Origin: Cenarchaeum sp.
Lineage (GTDB): Archaea; Thermoproteota; Nitrososphaeria; Nitrososphaerales; Nitrosopumilaceae
DNA: 10,550 nucleotides
Direction of reading: 5' to 3'
NCBI GenBank assembly: GCA_020027365.1
Contig: JAHRAJ010000032.1
Location: 1 to 10,550, forward strand
Each line of letters begins with the position of its first letter. Positions within the stretch are counted from its first letter, which is position 1. The translations under genes and the position numbers were made by a program. The notes under the pieces are model-generated. The model ran no database searches. It worked only from the letters and a program-made list of their open reading frames with translations, and was not told the DNA's origin. This document shows positions 1-10,550 of the stretch, in pieces.

Positions 1-2
1 TC

Positions 3-74
3 GGCAGCCGCGTCATAGGGCGGGTCGTTGGCGGGAGGGGCAGGGTGGAGGTAAACTCCGTCCGGATCGCCTGA
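3..74 (+). CDS. Possible 3' end of a gene entering from the left edge (partial)
   Basis: The frame beginning at base 3 is open from the window edge to a TGA at 72-74. It reads as about 23 residues ending in VEVNSVRIA, with a Val/Gly/Arg-rich stretch (VIGRVVGGRGRVEV) that looks like a C-terminal beta hairpin. Such endings occur in proteins of the PurM/ThiL/HypE AIR-synthase superfamily, but the fragment is far too short to assign. Codons such as AGG, ATA and GTC match the neighbouring genes. It could equally be chance open frame in GC-rich DNA. Confidence 0.3.
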   Translation, partial: GSRVIGRVVGGRGRVEVNSVRIA

Positions 75-110
75 TCGCCTGCCCCTTTGCTGGCGTGCCT
101 GCGGCGACCT

Positions 111-129
111 GCGCCGCCGCCGCCGCCGC
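111..129. repeat. (GCC)n triplet run upstream of the antiporter gene
   Basis: About six consecutive GCC/CCG triplets form a simple-sequence tract in the non-coding leader between the left-edge fragment and the antiporter start. The tract is followed by a short CCTG/CCTGC repetition. No function is visible; it may reflect replication slippage in GC-rich DNA. Confidence 0.6.
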
Positions 130-194
130 ACGGGTGTGCGCCTGCCTGCCTGCGGGATGGCTGGACGCCCTGCGGCCGCCGCCGGGGGTAATCG

Positions 195-202
195 TCTTAT
201 AT
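195..202 (+). promoter_or_regulatory. TATA box for the antiporter gene
   Basis: The AT-rich octamer CTTATATT stands out in very GC-rich surroundings. Its centre lies about 27 bases before the ATG at 226, the normal TATA-to-transcription-start distance in archaea. Transcription would therefore start at or next to the start codon, giving a leaderless mRNA. This is also the main reason for preferring the ATG at 226 over the GTG at 136. Confidence 0.65.
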
Positions 203-225
203 TGCCCGTCATTCCAGCACGTCTG

Positions 226-1572
226 ATGGCGGCAGAGGCGCACTTTATCCAGATCATCATAGGGATTGGGATACTTTTGTTTGCCGCCAAGATCATGGCG
301 GAGGTATTTTTGAGGCTGAAGCTTCCGATCGTGCTGGGCGAGCTGCTGGCCGGCATGATAATCGGCCCCTTTGCACTGGGATCGTTTCTTGTCTGGGACG
401 GGGAGCAGCTGCTGCAGATTGGGCCCGAGATCAAGGCACTGGGGGAGATTGGGGCGATTGTAATCCTGTTCATGGCCGGGCTGGAGATGACCCCCAAGGA
501 GTTTCTCAGGGGGGGCAAGGCGTCATTTACCGTCGGCACGCTTGGCGTGGTGGTGCCGTTTTTTGCGGGGCTGGTGTCGTTTCAGATGTTCGGATACGAC
601 GCGTTGCAGTCCATGATGATCGCCACGGCGCTGACCGCCACAAGCATCGCCATATCGATCCAGGTCCTAAACGAGTTTGGCAAGATAAAGACCTCCGAGG
701 CCCGCCTGATAATCGGCGCGGCGGTCGTGGACGACATACTTGCAATCGCGGTCTTGTCGGTCGTCTCGTCCATCGCGGCCGGCGGTGACGGTGTGGAAAA
801 CATAGACATCGGGGAGATTACGATCACCATCCTCAAGGTGCTTGGATTCTTTGCGGTCATGCTGGTCGCCGCGGTGTTTTTGGTGCCAAAGTTTGTCACA
901 CCCAACCTGTGGAAGGCAAAGGGGAGCGTAGAGGGGATTGCGACGGCGGTTTTCTTTGGGGCCGCCGCCCTTGCAGGTTCGATAGGACTGTCGCCAATCG
1001 TGGGCGCGTTCGCGGTGGGGATGGCGCTGTCCACCACAAAGGTGTTTGAAAAGGTGGAGAGCTACATCGGCAAGGTCGGACTGATATTTGCGCCCCTGTT
1101 CTTTGCGATAATCGGCGCACAGGTGGACTTTACCTCTGTGGATCTCAACATATTGATGCTAAGCGGGGTGGTGATTGTCATAGCCGTGGTTACAAAGCTG
1201 CTTGGCTGCGGCCTGCCCGCCGCCGTGTTCCTCAAGAACAGGGCCCAGGGCATGAGGGTCGGCATCGGGATGATATCAAGGGGCGAGGTGGGCCTGATTG
1301 TGGCAGGCGTGGGCGTGTCGCTGAGCATACTAAACTCCGAGGTGTATTCCACCATCGTGCTGATGGTGGCGGTCACCACCATAATCACCCCGATATGGCT
1401 AAAGATGGAATACCGAAAGGAGATGCAGCGGCAGGGGGAGGGTCTGGCGGCGACGAAACACGATCCCCCTGACGGTCATGGGGGCGGCTCTGGAGGCGGT
1501 GCCGGGGGCGGCGGTGCACGGGTGGCCGACGGCGGCGAGCAAGGGACGCTTGTTAAAAAGGACAAGGTATAA
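226..1572 (+). CDS. Kef/NapA-type monovalent cation:proton antiporter (CPA2 family)
   Basis: Integral membrane antiporter of 448 residues that probably exchanges Na+ or K+ for H+ across the cytoplasmic membrane. Around a dozen hydrophobic segments span residues 6 to 392. Family marks are GELLAGMIIGP (38-48), GAIVILFMAGLEM (76-88), the TATS helix (137-140), the ion-binding Asp pair in GAAVVDD (Asp169-Asp170) and SRGEVGL (351-357), as in NapA/GerN-type proteins. The C-terminal RCK/TrkA-N nucleotide-binding domain of KefB/KefC is absent; instead there is a hydrophilic Gly-rich tail after about residue 405. The frame stays open upstream to a GTG at 136, but those 30 residues are Ala/Gly/Pro-rich and the TATA box lies inside them, so the ATG at 226 is preferred. 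The antiporter call is firm; the transported ion cannot be read from the sequence. Confidence 0.9.
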   Translation: MAAEAHFIQIIIGIGILLFAAKIMAEVFLRLKLPIVLGELLAGMIIGPFALGSFLVWDGEQLLQIGPEIKALGEIGAIVILFMAGLEMTPKEFLRGGKASFTVGTLGVVVPFFAGLVSFQMFGYDALQSMMIATALTATSIAISIQVLNEFGKIKTSEARLIIGAAVVDDILAIAVLSVVSSIAAGGDGVENIDIGEITITILKVLGFFAVMLVAAVFLVPKFVTPNLWKAKGSVEGIATAVFFGAAALAGSIGLSPIVGAFAVGMALSTTKVFEKVESYIGKVGLIFAPLFFAIIGAQVDFTSVDLNILMLSGVVIVIAVVTKLLGCGLPAAVFLKNRAQGMRVGIGMISRGEVGLIVAGVGVSLSILNSEVYSTIVLMVAVTTIITPIWLKMEYRKEMQRQGEGLAATKHDPPDGHGGGSGGGAGGGGARVADGGEQGTLVKKDKV

Positions 1573-1574
1573 AA
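1568..1574 (+). promoter_or_regulatory. TATA box of the H1-like gene, overlapping the upstream stop codon
   Basis: TATAAAA covers the last bases of the antiporter gene, including its TAA stop at 1570-1572. Its centre is 27 bases before the ATG at 1598, so the basic-protein gene can be transcribed by itself as a leaderless mRNA even though only 25 bases separate the two genes. Confidence 0.65.
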
Positions 1575-1597
1575 CGACATTGTGGGGATGACGGTTA

Positions 1598-2260
1598 ATG
1601 TCTGAAAAGCCCGAGACAAGCGAGTCACAAAGCCCGGAATCTGAGCAGCAGCTAAAGAAGATGGAGATACTGCGCGAGCTGCAGACGCTCAAGGCGGAGC
1701 TTGCAAAATTCAAGAGCGGCAGGGCCGCAGACGCCAATGGCGGGGATGCGGCAATCACCCCCAAAAGGCGCACGGGTGCGGCAAAAAGGACTGCGAAACG
1801 GCGGGCCGCTGCTACAAAGACAAAGACAAAGAGCAAGGCCAAGACCCGGGCCGGGGGCGCAAAAAGGACTGCGAAACGGCGGGCCGGCACAACGACGGCG
1901 GCAAAAAAGGGCGGACGTAGTGTAGCACGAAAGACTGCGAAACGGCGGACCGTTACTGCAAAGGGCAAGACCAAGGCCAGGGGCGCAAAGACTGCGAAAC
2001 GGCGGGCCGCGGCTACAAAGACAAAGACAAAGACAAAGAGCAAGGCCAAGACCCGGGCCGGGGGCGCAAAAAGGACTGCGAAACGGCGGGCCGGCACAAC
2101 GACGGCTGCCAAAAAGGGCGGACGCAGTGTAACAAGAAAGGCTGGCAAAAGGCGGACCGTTACTGCAAAGGGCAAGACCCGGGCCGGGGGCGCAAAGACT
2201 GCGAAACGGCGGGCGACGGCTCCAAAGGGGCGCGGTGCCACACGCACAAAACGGCGGTAG
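1598..2260 (+). CDS. Lys/Arg/Ala-rich histone H1-like repeat protein
   Basis: Protein of 220 residues with two parts. Residues 1-42 are Ser/Glu-rich and then form a probable short coiled coil (LKKMEILRELQTLKAELAKF). From about residue 55 to the end the chain is almost wholly Lys, Arg, Ala, Thr and Gly, resembling the C-terminal tail of histone H1 and bacterial HctB/AlgP-type proteins. The pentad TAKRR or a variant recurs at residues 65, 91, 113, 132, 160, 182 and 201, within two tandem units of 67 and 69 residues. Likely role (inference): a dimeric or oligomeric DNA-binding or nucleoid-compacting protein, or possibly an RNA-binding one. There is no histone fold, Alba fold or HMG motif. The start rests on the TATA box 27 bases upstream. 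The high compositional bias means similarity searches alone would be unreliable. Confidence 0.8.
   Translation: MSEKPETSESQSPESEQQLKKMEILRELQTLKAELAKFKSGRAADANGGDAAITPKRRTGAAKRTAKRRAAATKTKTKSKAKTRAGGAKRTAKRRAGTTTAAKKGGRSVARKTAKRRTVTAKGKTKARGAKTAKRRAAATKTKTKTKSKAKTRAGGAKRTAKRRAGTTTAAKKGGRSVTRKAGKRRTVTAKGKTRAGGAKTAKRRATAPKGRGATRTKRR
1791..2214 (+). repeat. Tandem DNA repeat (201 and 207 bp units) inside the H1-like gene
   Basis: Two nearly identical direct copies occupy about 1791-1991 and 1992-2198, followed by a partial third copy from 2199 that begins CTGCGAAACGGCGGGC. Copy 2 has one additional ACAAAG-type hexamer (two more residues, Lys-Thr) in the AAAGAC run near 2013-2040, so the period moves from 201 to 207 bp. 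Identity extends to synonymous positions, which suggests recent duplication or ongoing gene conversion rather than protein-level constraint only. Confidence 0.85.
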
Positions 2261-2325
2261 ATGATTTGGCCGTTGTACTGATGATCACGTGCCGGTCGGA
2301 GATTCATGCTAGCCGATGACGCGGT

Positions 2326-3951
2326 ATGTCACGACACGATCAGGATCTTAGGCTGGCATGCGTGGAGATTACGAGCAATTTGCTGCGCGCCAAAAACCCG
2401 TCCAGGGGGCAGGTGGTGGCGGAGATAAAGAGGGCGTGCTCCAAGTATTCGCTTGACCGGATGCCGAGGAACAACGAGATTCTGTCCAGCGTGTCCGGGC
2501 GGGATTTTGCAAGGCTCAGGCCCGTCTTGCTACGCAAGCCGGTAAAGACCGCCTCGGGCGTGGCGGTGGTTGCGTTGATGCCGATGCCGTATGCGTGTCC
2601 GCACGGGCGGTGCACCTACTGCCCTGGCGGCGTCGAGTCCAATACGCCCAACAGCTACGTGGGGACGGAGCCGTCCGTGATAAACGCCGTGGAAAACATG
2701 TATGATCCGGGGGCGCAGATCACGTCAAAGATTGACAAGCTTGTGGCGTACGGCCATGACGTTGAAAAGATGGAGCTGGTGGTGGTTGGCGGGACGTTCT
2801 TGTTCATGCCCGGGGAGTACAGGGCCGGGTTTGTAAAGTCGTGCTATGACGCCCTCAACGGGTTTGAGTCTGCCACGTTGCACGGGGCAAAGGCGGCAAA
2901 CGAGGGCGCGCGTGTGCGCAACGTGGGGTTTTCCGTGGAGACAAAGCCAGACTACTGCGGGGTTCGAAACGTTGACGACATGCTGGAGTACGGGGTGACC
3001 CGCGTGGAGATTGGAGTGCAGTGCCTGCGCGAGCGCGTGTACGAGAGGACAAACCGCGGGCACGGGATGGCAGAGGTCGTCGAGTCGTTCCGGGTGTCCA
3101 GGGATGCGGGGTATAAGATTGTGGCACACATGATGCCGGGGCTGCCGACGATGACCCCCGAGGAGGATATCGAGGACTTTGCGAGGCTGTTTGACGATCC
3201 GAGGTTTAGGCCCGACATGCTCAAGATATACCCGTCGCTGGTGATCAAGGACACGCCGATGTATGACGAGTATGCGTCCGGGGGGTACCGCCCGTATTCC
3301 GACGAGGAGATGATACGGGTCCTTGCCGAGGTAAAGGCGCGCGTCCCCCCGTGGGTCCGGATAATGAGGGTGCAGCGGGAGATCTCGCCGGACCAGATTG
3401 TGGCCGGACCCAGATCGGGCAACCTCCGGCAGCTTGTACACAAGAGCATGCGTGACAGGGGGATGTCGTGCAGGTGCATCCGGTGCCGCGAGGCCGGGCT
3501 GTCTGCGGGGGGCGGTGCAGGCGGGCTTGCGATGAACCGGCAAGAGTATGATGCGGCTGACGGCAGGGAGGTCTTTTTGTCATATGATGACGGGGATGGG
3601 CGGATTTACGGGTTTTTGAGGCTGAGGATGCCCGGACGGGGGGCGCACCGGGACGAGGTGGCGGGGAGGGCGGACGGCGGCGGCGGGTCTTGCACGTCGG
3701 CGTCGGGGCGCGCCGCCGTGGTGAGGGAGCTGCATGTGTATGGCAGGTCGTTGCGGCCCGGGGATCGGGATTCGGACGGCATACAGCACCGCGGGCTGGG
3801 GCGGGGGCTGATGGCAGAGGCCGAGCGGATATCCGCAGAAGAGTTTGGGGCCGGCAGGATGCTGGTAATCAGCGCAGTGGGAACCCGCCCGTATTACAGG
3901 GGGATTGGGTATGCGCTGGACGGCCCGTACATGGCAAAGGAGCTTGGATGA
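2326..3951 (+). CDS. elp3: Elp3: radical SAM tRNA uridine-34 acetyltransferase
   Basis: Archaeal Elp3 of 541 residues. The family uses acetyl-CoA and radical SAM chemistry to place a carboxymethyl group on C5 of wobble uridine in tRNA, in the cytoplasm. The radical SAM part carries CPHGRCTYCPGG with the CX4CX2C iron-sulfur cysteines Cys91, Cys96 and Cys99, then VVVGGTF (152-158), VGFSVETKPD (200-209) and VEIGVQ (227-232). The Elp3-specific Cys cluster MSCRCIRCREAG is at 380-391. The C-terminal GNAT domain (about 405-541) has the acetyl-CoA loop QHRGLGRGL (487-495) and the signature VGTRPYYRGIGY (518-529). A low-complexity Gly/Ser/Arg insert (about 437-462) sits in the GNAT domain. There is no clear TATA box or Shine-Dalgarno site in the 65-base gap before the ATG, so its promoter is unresolved. 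It is the first gene of a compact set with lysS. Confidence 0.95.
   Translation: MSRHDQDLRLACVEITSNLLRAKNPSRGQVVAEIKRACSKYSLDRMPRNNEILSSVSGRDFARLRPVLLRKPVKTASGVAVVALMPMPYACPHGRCTYCPGGVESNTPNSYVGTEPSVINAVENMYDPGAQITSKIDKLVAYGHDVEKMELVVVGGTFLFMPGEYRAGFVKSCYDALNGFESATLHGAKAANEGARVRNVGFSVETKPDYCGVRNVDDMLEYGVTRVEIGVQCLRERVYERTNRGHGMAEVVESFRVSRDAGYKIVAHMMPGLPTMTPEEDIEDFARLFDDPRFRPDMLKIYPSLVIKDTPMYDEYASGGYRPYSDEEMIRVLAEVKARVPPWVRIMRVQREISPDQIVAGPRSGNLRQLVHKSMRDRGMSCRCIRCREAGLSAGGGAGGLAMNRQEYDAADGREVFLSYDDGDGRIYGFLRLRMPGRGAHRDEVAGRADGGGGSCTSASGRAAVVRELHVYGRSLRPGDRDSDGIQHRGLGRGLMAEAERISAEEFGAGRMLVISAVGTRPYYRGIGYALDGPYMAKELG
3936..3942 (+). promoter_or_regulatory. Shine-Dalgarno-like site deciding the lysS start
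   Basis: AAAGGAG lies in the last codons of elp3 and ends 10 bases before the TTG at 3953. It is only one base from the alternative TTG at 3944 and downstream of the TTG at 3905, so it favours 3953 as the lysS start. The spacing is somewhat long, so the support is moderate. Confidence 0.4.
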
Positions 3952-3952
3952 G

Positions 3953-5569
3953 TTGACGGACGGGCGACAGGATGTCATCGGGAGGGGGACGTGGATTGAC
4001 AAGCTTGCGCATGAGATGGTGGAGCGCGAAGAGGGGCTGGGGCGCAGCACCGACATGCTGAGGGTGGAGAGCGGGCTTGGGGCGTCCGGCATACCCCACA
4101 TTGGGAGCATCGGGGATGCCGTCAGGGCGTTTGGCGTAAAGCTCGCGCTTGAGGACATGGGGCATGGCTCGGAGCTGGTGGCATACTCGGACGATCTTGA
4201 CGGGCTGCGCAAGATACCGGACGGGATGCCGGCCTCGCTGGAGGAGCACATGGCAAGGCCGGTGTCGGCAATCCCGGATCCCGACGGGTGTCACGATTCG
4301 TATGGGATGCACATGAGCAGCTTGCTGCTGGACGGGCTGGACAGGATTGGGGTGGAGTATAGGTTTGAGAGGGCCCGCGACGCGTACGGGAGGGGGGAGT
4401 TTGCCGAGCAGATTCACCGCATTCTGTCAGAGCGCGGGAGGATTGGCGAAAGGATATCCGAGATGGTCGGGCAGGAAAAGTATACCAGGTATCTGCCGTA
4501 CCATCCGGTGTGCGCCGGCTGCGGGAGGCTGTACACGGCAGAGGCGCACGATTATCTGGAGGACAGTAGGAGGGTCAGGTACAGGTGCGGTGACGCCAAG
4601 ATTGGAGAGTCGGTTGTAAGGGGATGCGGCCACGAGGGCGAGGCCGACATCTCCGGGGCCGGCGGCAAGCTTGCATGGAAGGTGGAGTTTGCGGCTAGGT
4701 GGCAGGCGCTGGACATCAGGTTTGAGGCGTATGGCAAGGACATCATGGACTCGGTACGCGTCAACGACTGGGTTGCCGACGAGGTGCTTGGGTTTGCACA
4801 CCCTCACCATGTAAAGTACGAGATGTTCCTGGACAAGGGCGGAAAAAAGATATCAAAGTCTGCCGGCAACGTGGTGACCGCGCAGAGGTGGTTTCGGTAC
4901 GGCTCGCCCCGGTCGGTGTTGCTTTTGCTGTACAAGAGGATTACCGGTGCAAGGGAGCTGGGGTTTGATGACATCCCCGCCCTGATGGACGAGTATAACG
5001 AGCTGGAGGACGTCTACTTTGGGCGTGCAAAGATCGACAACCCGGCGCGGGCGGCCAGGCTCAGGGGGCTGTACGAGTATGTCAACCTGCTGGATCCGCC
5101 CGCCGGCGCTGCACCGCACGTGAGCTATAGGCTGGCCGCCGAACTGGCCGGGATATTTGTAGAGGACAGGGTCGACAGGGTGACCAAAAAGCTTGCGGAT
5201 TACGGCGTCATTGGCGAGGAGGACGCGCAGAGTCTGGCTGTAAGGGAGCTTGTCGGGCTGGCGGGAAACTATGCGGACGACTTTGGCGGCGGTGGCGGCG
5301 GTGGCGGCGACGGGGGGGCGGAGATTGGCAAGGAGGTCCGCGCCGCACTTGCGGGCGTGGCCGACATGCTGGAGGGGACGGAGGATCCGGCGGATTTACA
5401 AAACTCGATATACCAGGCGGCCAAGTCAAACGGCGCGGCCCCCAGGGATCTCTTCCGGGCGCTTTACCGGATAATTCTGGGGACCGACCGGGGGCCAAAG
5501 ATTGGACCCTTCATCCTTGACGTGGGGCGGGGCAAGGTGGGGCGGATGATCAGGGCCTGGTTGGGGTGA
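3953..5569 (+). CDS. lysS: Lysyl-tRNA synthetase, class I
   Basis: Class I LysRS (LysK type) of 538 residues, which charges tRNA-Lys with lysine using ATP. It is the archaeal form, unrelated to bacterial/eukaryotic class II LysRS. The Rossmann fold carries the HIGH-type motif PHIGSIGD (residues 48-55) and the KMSKS-type motif KISKS (299-303). Between them is a Cys cluster (Cys187, Cys190, Cys212, Cys225) that fits the zinc-binding insert of the family, followed by GKLAWKVEFAARW (238-250). The C-terminal helical region is the anticodon-binding part; a run of eight Gly at 445-452 interrupts it and looks like a species-specific insert. The frame is open back to TTG 3905 within elp3. TTG 3953 is chosen because it begins one base after the elp3 stop behind AAAGGAG; TTG 3944 is also possible. 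Translation is probably coupled to elp3. Confidence 0.93.
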   Translation: MTDGRQDVIGRGTWIDKLAHEMVEREEGLGRSTDMLRVESGLGASGIPHIGSIGDAVRAFGVKLALEDMGHGSELVAYSDDLDGLRKIPDGMPASLEEHMARPVSAIPDPDGCHDSYGMHMSSLLLDGLDRIGVEYRFERARDAYGRGEFAEQIHRILSERGRIGERISEMVGQEKYTRYLPYHPVCAGCGRLYTAEAHDYLEDSRRVRYRCGDAKIGESVVRGCGHEGEADISGAGGKLAWKVEFAARWQALDIRFEAYGKDIMDSVRVNDWVADEVLGFAHPHHVKYEMFLDKGGKKISKSAGNVVTAQRWFRYGSPRSVLLLLYKRITGARELGFDDIPALMDEYNELEDVYFGRAKIDNPARAARLRGLYEYVNLLDPPAGAAPHVSYRLAAELAGIFVEDRVDRVTKKLADYGVIGEEDAQSLAVRELVGLAGNYADDFGGGGGGGGDGGAEIGKEVRAALAGVADMLEGTEDPADLQNSIYQAAKSNGAAPRDLFRALYRIILGTDRGPKIGPFILDVGRGKVGRMIRAWLG

Positions 5570-5775
5570 CGGCGGTGGCGTACAACAGACACAACAGATC
5601 AAGGGGCAATGGCGGGTTTTTCCTGATACTGCTGGGCGCGCTGATCTTCATCACGGCCCCCGTGTACCTGGCGGACAGTCCGGGGCTTGGCGCGGCTGCC
5701 ATTGTGGCGGGCTTTGCGGCCGGAGGGATAGGGTTTTACGTAAAGTTTGTCAGGCATAGGTCGGGAGGGGAGTGA
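5566..5775 (+). CDS. Small two-helix membrane protein, unknown function
   Basis: A 69-residue protein with a basic N-terminus (NRHNRSRGN), a first hydrophobic helix at about 18-35, a short loop, a second helix at about 42-60 rich in Ala/Gly, and a basic end (KFVRHRSGGE). By the positive-inside rule both ends would be cytoplasmic, making a hairpin in the membrane. Its GTG start overlaps the lysS stop as GTGA, so it is probably translated by coupling; a GTG three codons later (5575) is an alternative start. I do not recognise a family. Reality as a gene is supported by the overlap, the clean two-helix pattern and the close spacing to the next gene. Confidence 0.7.
   Translation: MTAVAYNRHNRSRGNGGFFLILLGALIFITAPVYLADSPGLGAAAIVAGFAAGGIGFYVKFVRHRSGGE
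5764..5772 (+). promoter_or_regulatory. Shine-Dalgarno site of the coiled-coil protein gene
   Basis: GGAGGGGAG is a strong match to the anti-Shine-Dalgarno end of 16S rRNA. It ends six bases before the TTG at 5779 and overlaps the end of the preceding gene. It fixes the non-ATG start of the next gene. Confidence 0.65.
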
Positions 5776-5778
5776 AAG

Positions 5779-6855
5779 TTGGGGCTGTTTGGGTGGCGAA
5801 GGAACGGGGGTGACGACGGCAAGGACGGGGATGATGATGCTGGCGTCGGGGCATCCGACGTCGGCGGGCGGGGGGACGGTGGCGCGGGCGGCGTTGCCCC
5901 GGATGCCGGCGGGTCGGAGGGTGACGGTGCCGGGGCCGGGAGGGGCGACAACGACGGCGGTGACGATAACAACAACAACAACGACGACGACGCCAATGAG
6001 CAAAAAACAGGGGGGGCCGGCAGTGTGGGGGGGAACAAAACACGGTCTGCGGGTGTGGAACAAGGCGGCCCGGCGGGGGCCGCAGACGGCGGTGCCGCGG
6101 CCGGTGATGGCGGGGGCGGTGCGGGGCTTGCAAAAAGGGGCGAACTAGAGTCGCAGATCAGGGACATGGAGGGGGTGATGGTTGCAAAACGCCGCGAGCT
6201 TGACGGGCTGTCTGCCAAGCTTGTAGACGTCAAGAGCGAGTATGACATAGCGGTGGCCGGACTCATGTCCGTAAAAAAGGAGACAAACGAGGGGAAAAAC
6301 CGCATTGTCTCGCTTGAACGGCAGGAGAGGGTGGCCGCGGCAAGGCTTGAGGATCTTAAAAAACGGTGCGCGCAGGAAGAGTCCGGACTCGAAGACATCT
6401 CCAAGTCAACGGCCCAGCTGGATCGGGTGAAAAAGGACATTGAGCTAAACGCCGAAAAATATGAGAAGATACGGCGGGATGTCGAGGCCGCCCAGGACCG
6501 GCTAAACCAGCTTGGCGTCAAGAGGATAGAGGCAGAAGACCGGTACCAGGAGATGCTTGGCAAGGTGGGCGATGCGGGGGGGCTTGCCGCCCAGCAACGG
6601 GGCGTTGTCGGGGCAAAAGGAACGGACACGGCCGGCAGGGGCGGCGGCACCGACACCGGCTCTCCCAAGAACGTGGTAGAGGCAGCAAGCGCGGTGGTCG
6701 CATCGATGAAGGCAAAACTGAGCATAGCACAAAAGGAGGTCGAGACGGTAAAGCGGTTGCTTGAAAAGGAGAGGTCTGAACATGAAAAGACAAAGGAGGA
6801 TCTGATGCGGCTCCGGCGCAAGACGGGCGACGGGGGTGCCGCCAGCGCCGGCTAG
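5779..6855 (+). CDS. Coiled-coil protein with acidic low-complexity N-terminal region
   Basis: A 358-residue protein of unknown function. After MGLFGWRRN comes an approximately 110-residue region dominated by Asp, Gly, Ala and Asn, including NNNNNDDD at 64-71, which should be disordered. Residues from about 118 to 250 have the heptad-like Lys/Glu/Leu pattern of a long coiled coil, broken near 190-200 by CAQEESG. A second Gly-rich linker (about 255-295) leads to another coiled coil at about 305-350. No Walker motif, membrane helix or catalytic motif is visible, so it is not an SMC-type ATPase. A strong Shine-Dalgarno site and a three-base gap to the small membrane gene place it last in the elp3-lysS set. 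A structural or scaffold role, perhaps with the membrane protein, is inference. Confidence 0.8.
   Translation: MGLFGWRRNGGDDGKDGDDDAGVGASDVGGRGDGGAGGVAPDAGGSEGDGAGAGRGDNDGGDDNNNNNDDDANEQKTGGAGSVGGNKTRSAGVEQGGPAGAADGGAAAGDGGGGAGLAKRGELESQIRDMEGVMVAKRRELDGLSAKLVDVKSEYDIAVAGLMSVKKETNEGKNRIVSLERQERVAAARLEDLKKRCAQEESGLEDISKSTAQLDRVKKDIELNAEKYEKIRRDVEAAQDRLNQLGVKRIEAEDRYQEMLGKVGDAGGLAAQQRGVVGAKGTDTAGRGGGTDTGSPKNVVEAASAVVASMKAKLSIAQKEVETVKRLLEKERSEHEKTKEDLMRLRRKTGDGGAASAG
5968..5991 (+). repeat. (AAC)5(GAC)3 triplet run coding Asn5-Asp3
   Basis: Five AAC and three GAC codons in frame encode the NNNNNDDD stretch of the coiled-coil protein. The identical codon use shows slippage-type expansion at the DNA level within a disordered region. 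Confidence 0.75.
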
Positions 6856-7298
6856 TCCTGGGACAGGATCCTCTTTTTCCAGGTCTGGCGTATGTCTTCC
6901 TCGGGGATTCCTAGATCGTACAGCGGCGAGGTCACCTCGTCGACAGAGCCGACGGACACCAATATGATGTCGAGTATCCTGCTCCTCACACCCAAATCCC
7001 TGTAAAACGATAGTATTCTGCCGTGTAATCCTGCGCCGGGATCCAGGATCTGGGCCGTCCCTCCAAAGCGGTAGCCGCGACGGGATATGGGATCGATTAC
7101 GTTAATCTCCACCCTTGGGTCGGCACGTATGTTGTTTACCGTCCGGGGGGACTTGATGTTTGCAAATACCAGGCGCGTCTTGTCCCACACGTGGATTGTC
7201 CCCTTGGGGGACACGTTGGGCGAGCCATCCGGCGAGACCGTCGCGACATATCCCAGCCTTTGTCGGAGCAGCAGATCTTTCATCTTGCCGTCAAGCAT
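6852..7298 (-). CDS. Pyridoxamine 5'-phosphate oxidase-like flavin-binding protein
   Basis: A 148-residue single-domain protein with the split-barrel pattern of PNPOx-like flavoproteins: LGYVATVSPDGSPNVSP (residues 14-30), then VFANIKSPRTVNNIRADPRVEINVID (about 43-68), where the Ser/Pro-Arg-Thr-x-x-Asn-Ile segment corresponds to the flavin-phosphate contact. Such proteins bind FMN or F420 as dimers and act as small cytoplasmic oxidoreductases. True PdxH is longer and has extra C-terminal motifs, so a vitamin B6 role is not implied; the cofactor and substrate are unknown. The frame is open back to 7484, but those 62 residues are Pro/Arg-rich, and the ATG at 7298 has a TATA box about 26 bases upstream. 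The gene converges on the coiled-coil gene with a three-base stop overlap. Confidence 0.85.
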   Translation of the reverse strand: MLDGKMKDLLLRQRLGYVATVSPDGSPNVSPKGTIHVWDKTRLVFANIKSPRTVNNIRADPRVEINVIDPISRRGYRFGGTAQILDPGAGLHGRILSFYRDLGVRSRILDIILVSVGSVDEVTSPLYDLGIPEEDIRQTWKKRILSQD

Positions 7299-7319
7299 GC
7301 GCCTCAACCGGCGCCTCTG

Positions 7320-7327
7320 AATAAAAA
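7320..7327 (-). promoter_or_regulatory. TATA box of the flavoprotein gene
   Basis: On the minus strand the octamer reads TTTTTATT and is centred about 26 bases before the ATG at 7298, consistent with a leaderless transcript. It is the most AT-rich spot in this divergent intergenic region. Confidence 0.55.
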
Positions 7328-7508
7328 CCGAGATCTTTGACCGGCCAGACCCCGCCGGGGGGACTGGCCAACGCCCGGTTTCGGCGCGGTTTTCCGGTGG
7401 CTGGTGCCGACGCGGCGCCGGCGGCGGGACGGCGGCATGGATGCCGCCCGGTGCGTCAAACACCGTGCGCGGCATGGCCGGCACCTCGGGGATCTTGGGC
7501 CGTCAGAT

Positions 7509-7516
7509 CATTTAAC
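7509..7516 (+). promoter_or_regulatory. TATA-like box of the solute-binding protein gene
   Basis: CATTTAAC is centred about 28 bases before the TTG at 7541, the start that gives a clean signal peptide. The 242 bases between the two divergent starts contain this box and the opposite-facing box at 7320-7327; nothing else clear was seen between them. Confidence 0.45.
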
Positions 7517-7540
7517 AATGACGCGTTTTGTGCAACGGCG

Positions 7541-8869
7541 TTGGCACCAAAAGGCAGGCGACCCGCCGGGGCGGCCGTCGTCGTCATTGCGGCGGCTGTG
7601 GTGGCCGCCGGAATTGCATATGCGGCCATGGGCGGCGGCATCGCGCCGGTTCCGGGTGTGGGCGGTGGCGACGTATTGCCGCCTGCGCCCGCGGGGCGGG
7701 ACGCCGCCCCCGGCGCACCGGTGCTCGAGGGCGAGGTCACGATCGGGATCCTCCTGCCACTGACGGGGGATCTTGCCACGCATGGCACCGAAAACCTAGA
7801 GGGGACAAAACTGGGCATTGCAGACTTTAACTCGCATCTTGCAGAGGCGGGCGCCGGGTGGAGTCTAAAGGCCCTTGCGGAGGACTCTGCCACAAGCCCC
7901 GTCATCGCGCTTGAAAGGCTTGCGTCACTTTATGCAAGGGGCGTGCCCGTGGTAATCGGCCCGATTGCAAGCTCCAGCATACAAAACATCAAGGGCTATG
8001 CGGATTCCAACAACATGCTGCTTGTAAGCTGCTGCTCGTCGGCCTCCTCCCTGGCCATACCAGACGACAGCGTTTACCGCCTGATCCCGGACGACTCCAA
8101 CCAGGGCGTCGCGATTGGCAAGCTGTTGGACCATGCAGGCGTCGAGGTAATGGTGCCCATCTGGCGCGGCGACACGTGGGGGGACGGATTAAAGGATTCA
8201 TCCACAAGGTCGTTTCAAAAGCGTGGCGGACTGGTGGATTCCGGCATCAGGTACAATCCGGAACTAACCGAGTTTTCGGCATCCCTGTCACTGCTGGCGC
8301 AAAGCGTGCAGGAACACGTGGACCGGGTTGGAGCCGACAGGGTCGGCGTGCTGTTTCTTGGATTTGACGAGGCGCTCCATCTGATGCAGTCTGCGTCAGA
8401 ATATGGCGTGCTTGGCGACATACGGTGGTTCGGCCCCGGCACCGTGACCCGGGATCTAAAACTGGTCACGGATCCCATAGGCGCCGAGTTTACAAACAAG
8501 GTTGCGTTTACGACCGTGCAGGTGGCCGCCTCCCAGAGCCCGACCTATGAGCGGGTCCAGGCGCATCTGACCGATACGCTGGGGGTTGTCCCAAACACGT
8601 TTGTGCATTTTTCATATGACGCGGCATGGGTGGTCGGACTGTCGATACTCGAGGCACAGGGCCTCGACGTTACTGAAATCAAGCGCGTGCTGCCGGCCGT
8701 GGCCGGCAACTATAGCGGATCAATCGGATCCACGAAACTAAATCCGGCAGGCGATCTAATGCATGTAAACTACGAGGTCTGGGGCGTGCGCGATGGCGAA
8801 TGGCTCGGGCTGGGGCAGTATGACCACATCGGCGACTCTGTAGTGATAAATGACCCGCACGATCAATAG
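7541..8869 (+). CDS. Branched-chain amino acid-type ABC transporter solute-binding protein (LivK-like), orphan
   Basis: A 442-residue exported protein of the periplasmic-binding-protein type I fold (Peripla_BP_6/LivK). The N-terminus has a basic patch (PKGRR), a hydrophobic core (about 9-29) and a Gly/Pro linker, so it is either a cleaved signal peptide or an uncleaved membrane anchor. The binding domain begins near VTIGILLPLTGDL (66-78), the canonical first strand, and contains VPVVIGPIASSSI, the second-lobe start VEVMVPIWRGDTWGDG, and a late SYDAAWVVGLSI helix. No lipobox cysteine is seen. In other organisms such proteins deliver amino acids, amides or urea-type solutes to ABC permeases or sensors; no permease or ATPase gene is adjacent. 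TTG 7541 is chosen because upstream in-frame extension (to 7337) would bury the signal peptide and lacks coding character. Confidence 0.85.
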   Translation: MAPKGRRPAGAAVVVIAAAVVAAGIAYAAMGGGIAPVPGVGGGDVLPPAPAGRDAAPGAPVLEGEVTIGILLPLTGDLATHGTENLEGTKLGIADFNSHLAEAGAGWSLKALAEDSATSPVIALERLASLYARGVPVVIGPIASSSIQNIKGYADSNNMLLVSCCSSASSLAIPDDSVYRLIPDDSNQGVAIGKLLDHAGVEVMVPIWRGDTWGDGLKDSSTRSFQKRGGLVDSGIRYNPELTEFSASLSLLAQSVQEHVDRVGADRVGVLFLGFDEALHLMQSASEYGVLGDIRWFGPGTVTRDLKLVTDPIGAEFTNKVAFTTVQVAASQSPTYERVQAHLTDTLGVVPNTFVHFSYDAAWVVGLSILEAQGLDVTEIKRVLPAVAGNYSGSIGSTKLNPAGDLMHVNYEVWGVRDGEWLGLGQYDHIGDSVVINDPHDQ

Positions 8870-8870
8870 G

Positions 8871-8886
8871 CGGCAGGCGTCTGCCG
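8871..8886 (+). terminator. Short hairpin just after the solute-binding protein stop
   Basis: CGGCAG and CTGCCG form a six-base-pair stem with a four-base loop (GCGT), starting two bases after the TAG. It is not followed directly by a T-run; a run of six T at 8952-8957 further on is the more usual archaeal termination signal. Confidence 0.35.
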
Positions 8887-8915
8887 ACGCACGGCGACCC
8901 AAACGCAACCTGCTG

Positions 8916-8974
8916 GGGTTGGTGTTATTCTACAACAACTTGCCAGACCGCTTTTTTAGCCGAATAACCAACCC
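8916..8974. terminator. Long inverted repeat between convergent genes
   Basis: GGGTTGGTGTTATTC (8916-8930) pairs with GAATAACCAACCC (8962-8974) along 13 base pairs with a two-base bulge, enclosing a 31-base loop that contains a T6 run. Both flanking genes are read toward it (plus-strand gene ending 8869, minus-strand gene ending 9002). It may act as a two-way terminator or protect 3' ends. Confidence 0.5.
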
Positions 8975-9001
8975 TTGTTTGCAGTCTGCGACGACGGGCC
9001 G

Positions 9002-9760
9002 TCACTCGTTTTGTATTCTGGCATCGCACTGGGAAAAGTATCTGCAGGGGGCGCACCGTTTTGCGCTGTTGTGGTGCATCATGTCCAGGCTGCCCAGCGC
9101 AAGCAGTGCAAACCGTTGGGCGGACCTCTCGAGGAACAGCCGCGTCTCCTCGGTCTGCGTCCCGCGGAATATCTTGAACGGACGGTTGCCGTTGCCGCGA
9201 TCCTTGATCTGGATTATCCACGACTTTTCGGCATGCGGGATGTCTATCCACTCGTCTGGGCTGTAGGTGCCGTCGTCGGAGAACCTGGAGTTGAGATATG
9301 TCAGCGTCTGGAGCATCTGGTTGGGGTATGGCTCGAACCGTTCCGCGTATTTCTGGGGGTCTGCCGGAAACTTGTCGTCCTGGACAAGCAGGCGGCTGTC
9401 AGACCTGAGCATCTTGTCGGATCTGCCAAACAGCGAGAGCGTTACGGTCTTCCCTCCTTTGCCTGTAGCCACGGTCTGCTGGTACTTTGTAAGGACCGTC
9501 TCCCTTGCAAACTCGACATCCTGCTTCATGTCGGAGAGCTGCTCTGGCGTGATCGGCTCCAGCTCTACGTGCTCCATCTCGTATTTTTCCTCCTCCTTGT
9601 GGGCCTTTGAACCGCTGATGGTCTCGGCCGACGGCGGGGCCCTTATTCCTGCAAGCTGAAACGGGATTTTGTACTCGCAATACCCGATCGCGTCGGTAAA
9701 GTCGGACACGGTGGCCGTCACCTCTTGCCCCCCGTCGCCCGATCCCTTGATCTTTATCAT
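9002..9760 (-). CDS. Cas4/RecB-like iron-sulfur PD-(D/E)XK nuclease
   Basis: A 252-residue protein carrying, in order, every motif of the Cas4/RecB nuclease family. Near the N-terminus is Cys28 in GYCEYKIPFQLAG, then GSKAHKEEE with His54 (motif I). Next come GRSD (112-115, motif II), LLVQDDKFP with Asp128 and Lys130 (D-x-K, motif III), and QTLTYL (151-156), the Q-x3-Y motif. The end has RCAPCRYFSQC with Cys236, Cys239 and Cys245 spaced CX2CX5C, as in archaeal Cas4, which with Cys28 would bind a 4Fe-4S cluster. Known members are metal-dependent single-strand exo/endonucleases in CRISPR spacer processing or DNA repair. No cas gene or CRISPR array is in view, so repair or plasmid/virus defence is more likely (inference). 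The ATG at 9760 is chosen over GTG 9841; the extra residues include a poly-Pro stretch from the G12 tract. A shorter paralogous role cannot be excluded. Confidence 0.72.
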   Translation of the reverse strand: MIKIKGSGDGGQEVTATVSDFTDAIGYCEYKIPFQLAGIRAPPSAETISGSKAHKEEEKYEMEHVELEPITPEQLSDMKQDVEFARETVLTKYQQTVATGKGGKTVTLSLFGRSDKMLRSDSRLLVQDDKFPADPQKYAERFEPYPNQMLQTLTYLNSRFSDDGTYSPDEWIDIPHAEKSWIIQIKDRGNGNRPFKIFRGTQTEETRLFLERSAQRFALLALGSLDMMHHNSAKRCAPCRYFSQCDARIQNE

Positions 9761-9780
9761 GGTGTTTTCTACCTGCACTT

Positions 9781-9788
9781 GATTATCA
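9781..9788 (-). promoter_or_regulatory. Weak TATA-like box of the Cas4-like gene
   Basis: On the minus strand the bases read TGATAATC-like and sit about 24-25 bases before the ATG at 9760. The match to the archaeal consensus is poor, but the position agrees with the leaderless pattern of other genes here. The gene may also be read through from the winged-helix gene upstream. Confidence 0.3.
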
Positions 9789-9813
9789 GCTTTGCTGAAA
9801 ATGCGGGCGGTGC

Positions 9814-9825
9814 GGGGGGGGGGGG
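9814..9825. repeat. G12 homopolymer upstream of the Cas4-like gene
   Basis: Twelve consecutive G on the plus strand (C12 on the gene strand) lie in the 93-base gap between the winged-helix gene and the nuclease start. Tracts of this length are prone to slippage. It lies upstream of the probable promoter element, so length changes could alter promoter spacing; it could also carry a sequencing error. Confidence 0.7.
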
Positions 9826-9853
9826 CCGGACGACTGATCACGATCCCCTGCCG

Positions 9854-10201
9854 TCATTGGCAGTTTTTTTGCATAAACAGCTCTAGCATGGTCATGCCGC
9901 GCTCTGTTATCGAGTAGATTGTGCTGGTCTTGTTCACCCGCTTGCTTACAAAGTTATAGTCCAGGCACAGGTGAAGGTACCTCAAAAAGGACTTTTTCAT
10001 CCTGATGTTTGATTTCATGTACAGGTCTGTAAACGACATCGGACCCGTCTTGATTTGGTATAGCAGCTTTATCAGGGAGAGGGTGCTATAATCGCGCGTT
10101 CTGGCCCTCACCGCGTCAAGCACCTGTTCGTCGCGCTCTATGATAAAGTCGTCAAACTGCTCTGCCACGTTGATCGGTACGTACGTCAGACGGGCCTTCA
10201 T
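9854..10201 (-). CDS. Small winged-helix DNA-binding regulator
   Basis: A 115-residue protein. An approximately 38-residue N-terminal part is followed by a winged helix-turn-helix: helix 1 STLSLIKLLYQI (about 39-50), helix 2 MSFTDLYMKSNI (55-66), recognition helix KKSFLRYLHLCLDYNFV (69-85), wing strands SKRVNKTSTIYSIT (86-99) and a closing helix RGMTMLELFMQ (101-111). This order matches the ArnR1-like/HTH_45 family common in archaea. It probably binds DNA as a dimer and represses or activates transcription in the cytoplasm. A perfect palindrome sits between its TATA box and its ATG, pointing to self-regulation. It lies 93 bases upstream of the Cas4-like gene on the same strand, so it may control that gene as well. 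Codon composition is AT-richer than in the elp3 set. Confidence 0.8.
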   Translation of the reverse strand: MKARLTYVPINVAEQFDDFIIERDEQVLDAVRARTRDYSTLSLIKLLYQIKTGPMSFTDLYMKSNIRMKKSFLRYLHLCLDYNFVSKRVNKTSTIYSITERGMTMLELFMQKNCQ

Positions 10202-10204
10202 ACC

Positions 10205-10218
10205 GTACCGTACGGTAC
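10205..10218. promoter_or_regulatory. Perfect 14-bp palindrome, probable operator of the winged-helix gene
   Basis: GTACCGTACGGTAC is its own reverse complement. It lies just upstream of the ATG at 10201 and just downstream of the TATA box at 10223-10230, so a bound dimer would block transcription initiation. An overlapping TACCG direct repeat precedes it, and further GTAC tetramers occur at 10177, 10181 and 10243. Confidence 0.65.
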
Positions 10219-10222
10219 AGCA

Positions 10223-10230
10223 CTTATTAA
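10223..10230 (-). promoter_or_regulatory. TATA box of the winged-helix gene
   Basis: On the minus strand it reads TTAATAAG, centred about 25-26 bases upstream of the ATG at 10201, again consistent with a leaderless transcript. The operator palindrome lies between it and the start. Confidence 0.6.
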
Positions 10231-10246
10231 CCTTGGGTTGTGGTAC

Positions 10247-10256
10247 ACTGTTAAGT
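10247..10256 (+). repeat. ACTGTTAAGT element, copy 1
   Basis: Exact 10-mer, upstream of the winged-helix promoter. It has a second direct copy exactly 30 bases to the right and an inverted copy at 10409-10418. Confidence 0.7.
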
Positions 10257-10276
10257 TGGTGGGAGTTTTCGCCTAG

Positions 10277-10286
10277 ACTGTTAAGT
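10277..10286 (+). repeat. ACTGTTAAGT element, copy 2
   Basis: Exact copy, 30 bases (about three DNA turns) from copy 1, so both would face the same side of the helix. It lies immediately upstream of the TATA box at 10295-10302. Confidence 0.7.
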
Positions 10287-10382
10287 CAGGGTGCTTTATA
10301 TACGAAAATTCTCAAAAAGCTGCCTTTACAGGAATAGAGTCAGAGTCGGTGCAATAACAATTCACACAAAACTCCCTGACTT
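10283..10382. repeat. Inverted repeat AAGTCAGGG / CCCTGACTT
   Basis: AAGTCAGGG at 10283-10291 is matched by its exact reverse complement at 10374-10382. The left arm overlaps ACTGTTAAGT copy 2. The arms enclose the TATA box at 10295-10302 and about 80 bases of AT-rich sequence. Confidence 0.55.
10295..10302 (+). promoter_or_regulatory. Strong TATA box with no assigned gene
   Basis: TTTATATA matches the archaeal box A consensus exactly. In plus orientation a transcript would begin near 10325, where no open frame follows; in minus orientation it would begin near 10271 and give the winged-helix gene a leader of about 70 bases. The flanking bases do not settle the direction. Confidence 0.45.
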
Positions 10383-10408
10383 TACAACCACGGTAAAAGA
10401 TACCGCGG

Positions 10409-10418
10409 ACTTAACAGT
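10409..10418 (-). repeat. ACTGTTAAGT element, inverted copy 3
   Basis: The plus strand reads ACTTAACAGT, the exact reverse complement of copies 1 and 2. Confidence 0.7.
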
Positions 10419-10550
10419 GCAAGATCACTTGTGATATCGATCGGCAGTCTACAACCTGCCATCCCCACTGTTTGACTGTTGGCACATTTTTGCTAAAAAA
10501 TCGGTAAATATTAGATAAATTTCAGTAAAATCACACTATTTGGACAGTTT

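Follow-up and report, generated by a model that had tools for sequence, protein, structure and literature searches.

A Cas4-like nuclease gene of Nitrosopumilaceae outside CRISPR, with a CARF-type regulator encoded nearby in some relatives

Cas4-like proteins encoded outside clustered regularly interspaced short palindromic repeat (CRISPR) systems, comprising solo-Cas4 and the pfam12705 Cas4-like proteins, form an already described class (Hudaiberdiev et al. 2017, PMC5704561). As far as the accessible part of that paper goes, its members are PD-(D/E)XK proteins with conserved cysteines that occur in archaea away from cas genes and for which a role in defence or repair was proposed, and fusions of UvrD with Cas4 were likewise proposed there as components of defence. 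Here we describe a gene of this kind on a stretch of 10,550 nucleotides from Cenarchaeum sp. (contig JAHRAJ010000032.1, positions 1 to 10,550; hereafter the window). The window nuclease shares these features, and represents a new subfamily within the described class. It differs from that class in that its full-length members of about 245-252 amino acids have invariant residues of their own and were found, in genome surveys, in one archaeal family only. In addition, part of the family is encoded near a CARF-type regulator, a linkage that the accessible part of PMC5704561 does not describe for solo-Cas4. Solo Cas4 nucleases are widespread in archaea, and a CRISPR-free family with an intact active site, repeatedly found close to a CARF sensor gene in genomes in which Cas10 was not detected, offers a concrete handle on their job. 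The gene is located as follows.

9002..9760, minus strand: Cas4/RecB-type PD-(D/E)XK nuclease with a predicted iron-sulfur cluster, CRISPR-independent; 252 amino acids plus stop

A preliminary description of this DNA had listed the motifs of a Cas4-like protein, and each of them was located, with the same numbering, in the translated frame, namely Cys28, His54, G112-R-S-D115, D128-D-K130, Q151-x3-Y155 and C236-x2-C239-x5-C245. The His, the Asp, the D-x-K and the Q-x3-Y follow one another as in Cas4 and RecB nucleases, and in the predicted fold they accompany the alpha-beta core that is characteristic of this superfamily, while the placement of one N-terminal and three C-terminal cysteines is of the Cas4 type. 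An alternative GTG start at 9841, 81 bp upstream of the ATG, leaves the frame open; most of 38 aligned rows, however, share the same MIKI-type beginning, so that translation probably starts from the ATG at 9760.

The motif set is conserved throughout the family. At E<=1e-3, a protein search with the window protein yielded 94 entries, namely the query itself and 93 others that are 41-56% identical to it; a profile search based on 38 members yielded 519 entries at E<=1e-5, of which 120 were listed. From the listed matches of both searches (P0001-P0192), 180 sequences of at least 230 amino acids were taken as full-length rows. All ten motif residues are kept in 179 of these rows, query included, with a single row (Q151H) as the exception, and C28, C236, C239 and C245 are invariant in all 180; therefore, the motif set is not a product of chance. 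The residues E61, E87, R119, W181, H229 and H230 are also invariant in 180/180 rows, by which the nuclease family stands as a family of its own. The pair H229-H230 is absent from the core Cas4, CAS-Cas4 and UvrD-fusion rows of one mixed alignment, which spans distant families (43 nuclease-family rows, with the query twice, and 13 others) and in which one genome-derived row, L045, has a gap at the last C-terminal Cys. In the family tree, the window protein occupies a long branch and belongs to no starred group.

Kinship with known nucleases becomes visible at the level of the family. The query alone has no match in Pfam and only weak Cas4 matches in PADLOC (E 0.0065), and neither phmmer nor the profile search retrieved anything from the PDB sequences. 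Of the 38 members, however, 27 match PDDEXK_1 (pfam12705), 21 match Cas_Cas4 and 10 match Exo5 at E<=0.1 (best 1.4e-8). In the comparison of folds, Cas4 chains are the best match to the predicted structure, which also matches human EXO5 and the nuclease domains of AdnA and AddB at an identity of 13-18%; unlike these, the window nuclease is shorter and has no fused helicase partner. The earlier proposal of a Cas4 relative outside CRISPR is thus backed by family profiles, fold match and conserved residues. Since the D-x-K and the cysteines are conserved in the relatives, none of the contrary findings that the preliminary description had named (no profile match, another fold, variable motif residues) arose. 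It had also suggested that such a gene could easily be left as hypothetical, which does not hold everywhere: some relatives in Nitrosopumilus already carry the NCBI name "PD-(D/E)XK nuclease family protein", and for this reason the nuclease assignment as such is not new.

The gene product is, quite probably, a DNA nuclease of the Cas4/EXO5/AddB-C-terminal type whose activity depends on metal; it would carry a 4Fe-4S cluster and serve as a CRISPR-independent accessory in the processing of DNA damage or the removal of foreign DNA, tied to a CARF regulator in part of the family. Computation establishes the intact motifs, the fold, the distribution and the gene linkage in relatives; we infer cluster binding, nuclease activity and its polarity, as well as role and regulation. 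Like the exonucleases it resembles, the protein would be stabilised by its iron-sulfur cluster and would trim or degrade DNA ends in a metal-dependent manner. It would do so outside CRISPR, in repair or in clearing foreign DNA, and in those members of the family that have the CARF-winged-helix regulator (HFX_2341/DUF6293) encoded next to them, the making or use of the nuclease is probably tied to this regulator.

A CRISPR cas4 gene is ruled out by model score, gene context and the lack of an array in the window. Against the curated cas4 model (TIGR00372 equivalog), the query scores 12.3 bits, the cut-off being 65. The early remark that no CRISPR was in sight is borne out for the 10.5 kb examined: the window holds no CRISPR-like array, the repeat families shown resembling coding or GC-rich repeats, and no cas family was found among the other four window proteins scanned with Pfam. 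In 30 carrier genomes, Cas1-family matches were found in 11, and Cas1 lies beside a canonical Cas4 only in G180 and G221 (genomes are denoted by G, loci by L). Most of the other Cas1 matches are long frames of what we take to be casposase size, or fragments.

Besides the nuclease, 17 of the 30 carrier genomes have another Cas4-like protein, which is shorter, with about 217-237 amino acids. This is the core thaumarchaeal stand-alone Cas4, reported to lie beside the atp operon (PMC6863869, in the portion accessible); in one example (L073:1114-1755), it adjoins the gene for the ATP synthase C subunit. Both proteins are solo and Cas4-like, and they occur together in those 17 genomes. In contrast to the window family, seven core rows (L066, L069, L070, L073, L074, L075, L081) have nothing aligned to His54, D-x-K or Gln151 and keep the C-terminal cysteines, so that the core Cas4 looks catalytically degraded in the alignment and the intact active site is held by the window family.

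The nuclease is an accessory gene, patchily distributed in one archaeal family. It was found in 46 of 250 genomes of this family, which we take to be Nitrosopumilaceae from the titles of sequence records, in 31 of 300 genomes of the class and in 17 of 398 of the phylum, and all 31 class and 17 phylum matches recur in the family genome list. Counted among the 46 carriers are genomes with short or broken pieces (G100, G188, G371, G370) or with pieces at the edge of a contig (G033, G209), and absences are weak since many genomes are drafts. A scan of genome contigs with the single sequence gave two loci only. Protein P0027, labelled Bathyarchaeia, speaks against a strict restriction to one family; P0021 and P0029, without this label, group with it in the tree. 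Broken or partial copies in G370, G104 and G080 point to turnover of the gene.

When 31 nuclease loci were compared, the window included, no general shared context emerged. The recurring neighbour, present at 9 of the 31, is a 254-residue protein with the domains HFX_2341_N (1.4e-37), DUF6293_C, a winged helix (6.4e-21), and Csa3_N (2.2e-6), which PADLOC assigns to CARF3, i.e., a CARF-type, Csa3-like regulator. The domains are those of Csa3/HFX_2341 regulators; unlike in the HFX_2341 setting, what the homolog adjoins is not CRISPR but either a Cas4-like nuclease or a fusion of UvrD with a nuclease. In Haloferax mediterranei, according to the accessible part of PMC11434293, HFX_2341 acts as a global regulator, and when it is over-expressed, cas genes are repressed, cas4 being one of them; homologs are present in CRISPR-free species, and no homolog of the type III cyclase exists in H. 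mediterranei.

The CARF gene was found in 113 of the 250 family genomes, a count that includes fragments and broken copies. It is present in 36 of 46 nuclease carriers versus 77 of 204 non-carriers (Fisher p 9e-7, uncorrected for kinship). Of these 36 genomes, 16 have the two genes on the same contig, at a distance of 7 bp to 10.9 kb. The binomial chance of 16 linked pairs is 3e-19 on the assumption of independent positions and genomes, which related genomes are not. The arrangement is convergent in G221, G119 and G370 (the nuclease of the latter being broken) and divergent in G180 and G105, while in G001, G002 and G333 other genes stand between. Judged by eye, the linked copies are scattered over the nuclease tree, which contains 10 of the 16 and has many weak deep forks. 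Core Cas4 never lay within 12 kb of a CARF gene among the matches listed; this control, like overlaps and distances, was read by eye from the match listings. Several CARF genes have in-frame stops (G054:C1:356833-357060, G104:C18:17431-18177, G283:C15:8510-9271, G066:C79:2370-3131), which suggests that the module decays in some lineages. Six of 20 CARF loci (L092, L096-L100) share one fixed neighbourhood, read as Sir2-like, RNase Z-like, phosphoribosyl pyrophosphate synthetase-like and TFB genes, so that some members of the CARF family appear to have been inherited vertically.

A second nuclease occupies a similar position. Among the 113 CARF genomes, at least 12 have a frame of 893-1040 amino acids with a PDDEXK_1 end no more than about 7 kb away from CARF (G085, G143, G228, G013, G336, G054, G283, G058, G030, G104, G321, G269). 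In Pfam, two of these fusions (L093, L082) consist of a UvrD helicase and PDDEXK_1; the type L093/L094 has a Cas4-like Cys cluster and the type L082/L087 has none. The fusion is in tandem with the CARF gene in G143 and convergent to it in G336, G269 and G013. None of the 12 genomes is among the 16 with a CARF-nuclease pair, although G336, G104 and G283 carry a Cas4-like gene elsewhere, and in three of the 12 (G054, G104, G283) the CARF copy is one with in-frame stops.

Three further genes recur around the CARF gene. One encodes a small Zn-ribbon-like protein, so read from its sequence and without a match in Pfam; the others encode a DUF7220 protein and a beta-CASP hydrolase that resembles RNase J (E 9e-18 to the RNase J family, with a score of 64 bits where the cut-off is 400). 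At E<=1e-40, the hydrolase was found in 22 of 46 nuclease carriers versus 6 of 34 non-carriers, of which 17 have CARF and 17 lack it (p 0.0085); some matches are pieces. In 7 of the 22 (G001, G002, G087, G333, G221, G090, G370), no more than 600 bp separate it from the nuclease; its profile (A6) was derived from members encoded close to the nuclease, which favours finding them there. Several of the CARF-nuclease pairs also have this hydrolase. Cas10 (PF22335) was found in none of 32 genomes, 28 with a linked pair and four others, the control being positive in 5 of 14 and oddly including E. coli; these genomes hence gave no match to the enzyme that usually makes cyclic oligoadenylate. At L044 (G090), a NurA gene and genes read as Mre11/Rad50 are found a few kb away from the nuclease, and genes so read also lie near it at L045 (G070); the nuclease thus has DNA-end-resection genes in its vicinity.

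The proximity of the CARF gene to the nuclease (16/36 genomes with both) and to the UvrD fusion (at least 12 other genomes) is new here. A limited literature search, which is no proof of absence, found no description of a CARF/beta-CASP/Cas4-like neighbourhood without CRISPR; in the accessible part of PMC6563490, CARF is mentioned solely in the title of a reference. The association hints at a CRISPR-independent module of defence or repair. In its fullest form, which we put forward tentatively and regard as rather unlikely, Nitrosopumilaceae would possess a module independent of CRISPR and Cas10 in which a CARF sensor, responding to a nucleotide signal not made by Cas10, controls the iron-sulfur Cas4-like nuclease (interchangeable with the UvrD-PD-(D/E)XK fusion) together with the beta-CASP, Zn-ribbon-like and DUF7220 proteins and licenses the destruction or repair of DNA; the window nuclease would be its effector or a copy moved away. 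If the CARF protein does control the nuclease, signalling parts of the CRISPR type would cooperate without CRISPR in abundant marine archaea.

Several observations weigh against a CARF-tied nuclease. In the window, of which 9 kb on one side of the nuclease and 0.8 kb on the other are visible, no CARF gene stands beside it, and any linkage of this copy would have to be supposed from its relatives. Of the 36 genomes that have both genes, 20 have them far apart or on different contigs. One of the 16 linked pairs contains the broken nuclease of G370, and kinship between genomes inflates the linkage statistics. Among 139 neighbour proteins, the commonest Pfam families of those listed (25 of 77 and 25 of 60) were seen only twice and are mostly metabolic, in a scan that left out the window genes and most CARF and beta-CASP copies. 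Furthermore, the effects of HFX_2341 on cas genes are possibly indirect according to its authors (PMC11434293, in the part accessible).

The nuclease may instead be a repair exonuclease of the housekeeping type, a counterpart of EXO5 or of the AddB domain, whose CARF neighbour merely shares a variable chromosome region. The match of the fold to human EXO5 and AdnA/AddB, as well as the NurA and Mre11/Rad50-like genes of G090 and the similar genes of G070, are consistent with this. We hold it to be possible yet doubtful, as a gene in only 46 of 250 family genomes is therefore not a housekeeping one, and the CARF linkage recurs in several geometries spread by eye over the tree (10 of the 16 linked copies). 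The patchy distribution, the unstable position and the broken copies or pieces in G370, G104 and G080 would also suit cargo recently derived from a mobile element or virus, and PF12705 Cas4-like genes occur in many phages according to the accessible part of PMC5704561. Such an origin appears unlikely, however: viral contigs gave no match to the window protein with six exact peptide patterns, by which only close kin is detectable, no integrase, transposase or capsid family is among the Pfam families listed for the 139 neighbours, and the guanine-cytosine content of the gene (0.576) is near that of its flank (0.616). A viral origin as such is unsupported, since scanning viral contigs with this one protein gave nothing, though only close kin would have shown up.

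It is highly improbable that the protein is an adaptation factor for CRISPR or casposons, acting in trans with a distant Cas1. The Cas1 matches in 11 of 30 carriers, most of them long frames presumably of casposase size, and the nearest one on the same contig, about 15 kb from the nuclease in G075, would be in its favour; 19 of the 30 carriers, many of them drafts, have no Cas1 match, no adjacency of nuclease and Cas1 was seen, and the scores are far under the cas4 model. A CRISPR-independent Cas4-like nuclease, tied in some relatives to CARF, remains our preferred explanation.

The other features of the window are listed below; the first two rows come from reading the sequence and the others from Pfam.

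136-1572: cation/proton-antiporter-like frame
1598-2260: Lys/Ala-rich protein
within the window: ELP3-type radical S-adenosylmethionine protein
within the window: class I lysyl-tRNA synthetase
7337-8869: periplasmic-binding-protein-like protein
9854..10201, minus strand: winged-helix DNA-binding protein of 115 amino acids (PF14947 HTH_45)

The winged-helix protein matches HTH_45 at E 5.1e-5 with 23.7 bits, below the cut-off of 25.5, and its stop lies 93 bp before the ATG of the nuclease on the same strand. It has 1114 homologs, of which the 119 others listed are 68-81% identical, and those named among them belong to Nitrosopumilaceae or other Thaumarchaeota. It is probably not a dedicated partner because it is so widespread, and a dedicated operon of the two genes is unsupported, no winged-helix homolog being found among the neighbours at the 30 other nuclease loci compared. 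The window contains no tRNA and no Rfam match. A tandem duplication of 207 bp, 93% identical, occupies positions 1814-2227 inside the Lys/Ala-rich coding sequence. Finally, an imperfect inverted repeat of 52 nucleotides lies at 10246-10419, with the outer ends CACTGTTAAGT and ACTTAACAGTG, and a third copy of its motif is found near 10277, just upstream of the winged-helix gene; this repeat is possibly an operator or a small inverted-repeat element.
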